Assembly: GCF_001614315.2 (NCBI RefSeq)
Contig: NZ_LVEG02000001.1
Span: 186,001 to 250,000, forward strand
DNA: 64,000 bases
DNA from: Halofilum ochraceum
Lineage (GTDB): Bacteria > Pseudomonadota > Gammaproteobacteria > XJ16 > Halofilaceae
Reading direction: 5' to 3'
Below the pieces are notes generated by a model. That model did no database searches, had not been told where the DNA came from, and was given only the letters and a program-made list of their open reading frames with translations. The position numbers and the translations under genes were made by a program. Shown one piece after another: positions 1,378-59,161 of this stretch; positions within the stretch are counted from its first letter, which is position 1; every line of letters begins with the position of its first letter.

Positions 1378-1417
1378 TGGGATTTTCCGGGGTCAGGGGG
1401 TGGAAGCAAAAATCGGG

Positions 1418-1742
1418 AACCACGAATGAACACGAATGGACACGAATGCTGCCGCAGGGCTTATATGGATTCGGGGAGCTTCGCTGTTACGCCGTCGTGT
1501 GTGATACGGAAACTGCATAACCAAAAGATGAACTAAAAATGGACAAAAAATAGTTGATGACTGGATCCGGTCACCGTGTTGAATTCATCGCATTGCTATT
1601 TTTTGTTTATCTTTTGTCCATTTTTCGGTTATGCCGTTTTCGGGTGATCACGCAAGAGCCCTCAGAAGCGTTACAGCAAAGCTCCCGAACGATCGACAAG
1701 CCAAGCGGCAGCATTCGTGTCCATTCGTGTTCATTCGTGGTT
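1418..1742. repeat. Nested inverted-repeat element between prpC and prpD
   Basis: This fills the 375-bp gap 1378-1752, which holds no gene. The outer arms are 1418-1448 and 1712-1742. Each is three tandem near-10-mers of the type ACACGAATGR, facing each other. Inside lie a second, AT-rich pair of arms, 1519-1553 and 1596-1630, built on the same plan (AACCAAAAGATGAACTAAAA and its inverse). A related element with CACGAATG outer arms is at 58847-59132. The interior has no convincing ORF. The base composition, with runs of A and T, is unlike the flanking genes. Confidence 0.85.
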
Positions 1743-1752
1743 CTAAAAAAGA

Positions 1753-58838: not shown

Positions 58839-58846
58839 CTTTCTGG

Positions 58847-59132
58847 AACCACGAATGAACACGAATGCACACGAATGGAGTTGGGGCAAGTTGGTCTCTC
58901 TGGAGCTTCGCTGATACCGCGGGAGAGTGGCGACCTGGTTTTTGAACCACAGATGAACACAGATGGACACAGATAAAGGCGCTACGGCTGATTGCCCCGG
59001 GTTTTATCTGTGTTCATCTGTGTCTATCTGTGGTTCATTCCGAGCGATCAGGTGCGTTAGCGTCGCAACGAAGCTCCACTGACATCCGTGCTCCCCAGTC
59101 CCATTCGTGTTCATTCGTGTTCATTCGTGGTT
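58847..59132. repeat. Nested inverted repeat of CACGAATG and CACAGATG triplets
   Basis: Fills the 323-bp gap 58839-59161. The outer arms are 58847-58878 and 59102-59132, three tandem near-10-mers of ACACGAATGR. The inner arms are 58945-58979 and about 59002-59036, three near-10-mers of ACACAGATGR followed by AAAGG. The outer and inner arms differ by the two central bases of each repeat (GA against AG). The outer arms match the element at 1418-1742. No gene is seen. Confidence 0.88.
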
Positions 59133-59161
59133 CTCAAAAACTCCACCCCCTCGAGGCTTCA

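Follow-up and report, generated by a model that had tools for sequence, protein, structure and literature searches.

Triplet-coded inverted repeats co-inherited with GxxExxY genes across bacteria

What are the nested inverted repeats at 58846-59133, whose outer and inner arms follow one plan and differ by two bases in each unit, and which gene goes with them? The window, by which we mean the whole 64,000-nt stretch of DNA analysed, contains two arm-bearing elements, at 58846-59133 and 1417-1743. Their parts are listed below, the arms of the first element being read directly from the sequence.

58846..58877, + strand: left outer arm, GA code, three CACGAAT heptamers at 10-bp spacing, with the end GAACCAC
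58902..58913, + strand: GGAGCTTCGCTG, a motif that recurs between outer and inner arms of this genome's elements
58944..58977, + strand: left inner arm, AG code, three CACAGAT heptamers at 10-bp spacing
58978..59002, no strand: loop of the inner hairpin
59003..59036, – strand: right inner arm, AG code, inverted copy
59066..59077, – strand: inverted partner of GGAGCTTCGCTG, which is CAACGAAGCTCC on the + strand
59102..59133, – strand: right outer arm, GA code, inverted copy
1417..1448, + strand: second element, left outer arm, GA code
1519..1553, + strand: second element, left inner arm, AT-rich; the same address in the sister species (G001) has AG-code inner arms
1596..1632, – strand: second element, right inner arm, AT-rich variant
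1712..1743, – strand: second element, right outer arm, GA code

The first element consists of two nested inverted repeats in which each arm is built of three 10-bp units. The outer arms, at 58847-58877 (+) and 59102-59132 (–) when read without their terminal base, are AACCACGAATGAACACGAATGNACACGAATG, and the inner arms read AACCACAGATGAACACAGATGGACACAGAT at 58945-58975 (+) and a near-copy of AACCACAGATGAACACAGATGGACACAGAT at 59006-59035 (–). Direct reading bore out the nesting of GA-code outer and AG-code inner triplets described in an earlier note on this DNA, far above chance: the window holds 12 matches to CACNNATGNACACNNATG with at most two mismatches, compared to a mean of 0.98 in shuffled sequences, 0 of 100 of which reached 12. 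The second element, which the same note had placed at 1418-1742 with the same outer arms and an AT-rich inner variant, was likewise confirmed by reading. The note's 10-mer formula held for the triplet plan and the GA/AG pair but not in its details. The first unit of an arm starts AACCAC, is 11 nt long and is not a true copy of the other units; the tenth base can depart from R (it is C at 58868); and the right inner arm of the first element has a single ATAG departure. The elements end in GAACCAC...GTGGTTC, with the terminal G present in 40 of 41 left ends and 41 of 41 right ends. The folding energy of the element strand was –164.5 kcal/mol (z = –14), and in Rfam there was no match above gathering score, the only two matches, both to miRNA hairpins, being far below theirs.

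In the whole 3.64-Mb source genome (G000), a 20-nt arm pattern gave 102 + 108 matches (~210), and its reversed control gave 0. The elements are ~165-530 bp long and frequently nested, the arms of successive layers standing ~100 bp apart. All 34 scorable elements adjoin the 3' end of a gene (15 convergent, 19 tandem, 0 divergent); gene orientation was scored by codon-position GC, because in a genome this rich in GC antisense frames remain open. Only 2 of 56 relatives have the 10-bp code, namely G000 itself and G001, and it is absent from G002. The same arms are nevertheless present in at least a dozen phyla. An exact scan with one genome per species found at least 119 stretches with arms, and the matches listed fall in Planctomycetota, Verrucomicrobiota, Acidobacteriota, Cyanobacteria, Chloroflexota, Bacteroidota, Pseudomonadota, Latescibacterota and others; among viral contigs, 23 stretches match the arm pattern. 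No such element was found in E. coli genomes. The distribution of the arms across bacteria is patchy.

The earlier note had proposed looking for genes whose presence correlates with the arms, and GxxExxY proved to be such a gene. That GxxExxY genes reside in repeats of this kind was at first a presumption, which was then tested in this analysis. The window itself has no GxxExxY gene. The source genome has two PF13366 profile hits above the curated cut-off. One of these genes (L046) lies between GA arms identical to those of the window, and the other (L056) is inside another triplet-arm inverted repeat (CGCCAAG x3). PF13366 was encoded by 45 of 50 genomes fetched by their arms and by 24 of 150 genomes in a phylum sample (p = 1.5e-21, an indicative value, as the 50 arm-bearing genomes are mostly from other phyla and differ in taxonomy from the 150). 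Within the 150 genomes, at least two 10-spaced triplets were present in 11 of 24 with the gene and 2 of 126 without it (p = 1e-8), and within one family in 10 of 20 compared to 1 of 15 (p = 0.009). Seventy-nine GxxExxY genes were then taken by their own score with the arms disregarded; strict triplets stood on both flanks of 47 of them (shifted control windows, 0/284), doublets on both flanks of 60 (controls, 2/284), and a strong inverted repeat was found at 65 (controls, 2/284). The phylum and family sets among these (44 genes) are independent of the arms, and the 30 multi-phylum genes come from arm-holding genomes. Approximately ten loci fetched by arms alone, in many phyla, have GxxExxY between or beside the arms. 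The gaps between arms at GxxExxY loci are 356-415 bp, and GxxExxY is the only recognised protein in them. Five of the 50 arm-bearing genomes gave no PF13366 hit; triplet arms without such a hit occur in G090 (22 arms), G059, G161 and G172. Plasmids yielded five GxxExxY matches, and one query of 50,697 phage records yielded none. Gene and arms are one co-inherited unit across bacteria.

The element around the second GxxExxY gene of the source genome (L056 1358-1844; G000:C11:178857-179343) has CGCCAAG triplets at 8/9 spacing, is flanked by trpE-like and trpG-like genes, and is kept at the same place in G001 (L255). At six other loci (L079, L138, L131, L146, L185 and L112) the reading frame runs into an arm, where ATGAACAC or ATGGACAC can provide the N-terminus M-N/D-T-N/D of GxxExxY.

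GxxExxY (TIGR04256/PF13366) is a PD-(D/E)XK nuclease (PDDEXK_3) of ~120 residues, and 10 of 10 arm-associated proteins scanned match both profiles. D64, E74, K76, Q88 and Y92 are conserved in at least 58 of 61 GxxExxY proteins. The predicted structure (pLDDT 95.4) has its best solved-structure matches in Cas4 SSO0001 and lambda exonuclease, and the modelled fold together with the catalytic D, E and K agrees with the PD-(D/E)XK assignment; a PDB sequence search found no relative. The orthologous genes are under purifying selection (dN/dS ~0.09 and, with high dS, ~0.22).

Across 61 GxxExxY elements, the general arm unit is a CRCnRAn heptamer, three per arm, and the two variable bases of the earlier note are its positions 4 and 5. 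When tabulated, these bases were coherent within and between arms, rather than differing freely within one arm as the note had allowed they might. Agreement at position 4 was 0.75 within an arm, 0.76 between left and right arms and 0.41 between loci; the corresponding values were 0.91, 0.92 and 0.50 for position 5, and 0.96, 0.96 and 0.45 for the last base. The last base also goes with the spacing of the heptamers: T pairs with 10,10 (52 of 54 spacings were 10), A with 9,9 (28 of 28), C with 10, and G with 8,8, 8,9, 9,9 or 9,10. The spacing pair was identical in left and right arms in 47 of 48 cases, shuffles reaching at most 19. The supposition that a 10-bp period sets the variable pair on one face of the helix is rejected as a general rule, since other families space their units by 8, 9 or 9/10. 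Mapped on the nuclease tree, the last base needs 4 changes (shuffled, at least 17), the spacing 13 (at least 30) and the two-base code 20 (at least 27); the code therefore has slow and fast parts. Columns 25 and 29 of the protein alignment, just past the catalytic glutamate, hold K and N in the T-coded class and A and E in the A-coded class, and column 25 is mostly S in the G-coded class; these residues are a candidate specificity lead, confounded by ancestry. Recognition of the arms by the nuclease would be the simplest reason for this joint evolution, and linkage alone gives association too. The proposal that a repeat-reading protein may recognise the arms fits in that a correlating gene exists and its tree tracks the code; GxxExxY would be the putative reader.

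Most of the 40 arm regions of G001 coincide with an element address in G000. Among 36 shared addresses, 12 have GA arms outside in both species and 13 combine AG-type arms in G001 with GA arms in G000; the opposite combination is clear at none, and the rest are mixed. At several addresses, that of the second window element (1417-1743) among them, the two species have the GA outer layer in common, whereas one has AG inner arms and the other AT-rich ones. The orthologous GxxExxY element shows a block difference, with xG-type heptamers in one of the two species and GA heptamers in its sister, and the gene that it carries has diverged gradually. The arm code of GxxExxY itself is GA in G000, AG in G001 and CACGAAA (9,9) in G002, and the nuclease's own code is prominent genome-wide in these three species, with AG beside GA in G001; this match between resident gene and code is based on three genomes. 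The CACGAAA 9,9 code, predicted before the search, occurs 8 times in G002 and 0 times in G000 and G001. Element boundaries are exact in the shared-layer cases and in the window element 1417-1743, and less so in some AG/GA pairs, for which independent insertion at a preferred site may account. The block-wise code differences at shared addresses are compatible with more than one kind of in-place replacement, of which the template-driven process suggested in the earlier note may be one. Most elements of the genus are old and common to the species, so that recent movement was not observed. Target-site duplication was found at none of 41 elements. The empty-site check showed one address resembling a deletion scar in G001 (ATGA junction) and one empty in G002 with an unalignable junction; no clean empty site was found.

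We believe that the window elements are probably non-coding members of a selfish palindromic family, whose coding members have a single gene, GxxExxY, enclosed by the same arms. The code and the spacing are both coherent and track the nuclease phylogeny, and the addresses, which adjoin gene 3' ends, are retained between species that differ in code. As a mechanism, one nuclease subunit per arm would read the three heptamers, the nuclease would cut the element in cruciform, hairpin or duplex form, and repair that draws on another copy would spread elements or replace them, until the arms in a lineage correspond to the nuclease resident there. GxxExxY would serve non-coding copies, including those of the window, in trans. 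A wider version can be put forward only tentatively: that these are a pan-bacterial class of selfish palindromes with a modular triplet code, made up of heptamer letters and 8/9/10-bp spacing, which a minimal Cas4-like nuclease reads; through break repair the nuclease would rewrite elements where they stand, at fixed addresses, and whole genomes would switch code when its specificity changes.

Another enzyme, such as a RAYT/Y1 transposase or the host recombination machinery, could instead move the arms, GxxExxY being a passenger with perhaps a defence or toxin role. The arm arrays in the genomes without PF13366 are what this would predict, and a nuclease alone is no known transposase. However, GxxExxY is alone among recognised proteins in the gaps between arms, and its tree tracks both code and spacing, so that we regard a passenger role as unlikely. 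Still less probable is that the palindromes are hairpins useful to the host (terminators, mRNA-end stabilisers, nucleoid or replication sites) and kept by selection rather than selfish. Their position at gene 3' ends in all 34 scored cases, their very stable folding and the retention of addresses between species would suit such a function, but selection against damage would also leave elements beside 3' ends; interior pairs drift between orthologues (199/717 broken, with 37 compensatory changes vs 24 expected), nested layers and code differences occur at one address, and the 10-bp code is absent from nearly all relatives. RNA structure as a conserved feature was for its part weak, given the same drift. 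A decay origin of the codes, in which point mutation and random homogenisation turned a single ancestral repeat into GA and AG arms, is very improbable. In its favour, AG/GG mixtures within arms exist, mostly among xG codes, and the two-base code is the part with the most changes on the tree. Against it, an arm seldom mixes GA-type with xG-type units, the orthologous element differs as a block by species while its gene diverged gradually, and spacing and last base are clade-bound.

The selfish family favoured here shares features with several known systems. REPIN/RAYT systems comprise short palindromic extragenic elements in many copies, with repeat groups tied to particular copies of a DNA-processing enzyme that is itself associated with these repeats (Bertels and Rainey 2011, PMC3116915; PMC2817692). 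The family would work in a similar way with an unrelated enzyme. The present elements are likewise high-copy extragenic inverted palindromes beside gene 3' ends with a strong hairpin, but their enzyme is a PD-(D/E)XK nuclease and not, as RAYT, a Y1 HUH transposase, and their arms are tandem heptamer triplets in elements of ~165-530 bp that are often nested. They resemble MITEs with their autonomous insertion sequences in having terminal inverted repeats and non-coding copies with the ends of a coding member, and differ in the lack of target-site duplication and of a known transposase. Nucleases of the Cas4, lambda exonuclease and RecB type appear to share with GxxExxY its predicted fold and the D, E-x-K and Q-x3-Y residues; GxxExxY, however, is about half their size and is linked to coded palindromes instead of CRISPR or recombination genes. 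PD-(D/E)XK homing endonucleases offer a parallel in the small nuclease gene inside an element and in the conversion-like replacement proposed here, whereas these elements do not lie in an intron or intein and have coded inverted arms.

No description of the element family was found in the open-access literature, and no relevant open-access paper contains the arm sequences; judged on that literature, the novelty is provisional. The name GxxExxY occurs in two open-access papers, one of which mentions it solely as an annotation, in a passage that has nothing on repeats. A very widespread element family, with ends made of a short word in three copies that evolve with GxxExxY, has apparently gone undescribed. 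GxxExxY is often met as an "unknown" annotation and has next to no literature, and the coded arms give the family a testable candidate substrate; the link in turn explains a repeat present in at least a dozen phyla. Should the nuclease indeed read the arms, the natural code variants would make a ready specificity series for a DNA-reading nuclease of 120 residues. The genus studied documents how codes turn over at fixed addresses.

Several variations in element structure were also seen. In several elements (L012, L026 and the flanks of other loci) the arms are broken by a GC-rich hairpin-like block (CATTGCTCGGCGCGTCCATGCGCCTCGCC...), which looks as if another repeat had inserted into them. Tandem duplications of an element plus its flank, with the first copy truncated, occur at L013 (G000:C1:375853-376597) and L019 (631531-632012). 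Regular arrays are present in a Flavobacteriales MAG (L123, 2670-3203; eight arm copies every 72 bp) and, as repeated arm pairs, in an Acidobacteria MAG (L131, 3462-4736). At L054 and L275, the arms are crossed (xG+, GA+, xG–, GA–) and not nested, an order that is kept in both species.
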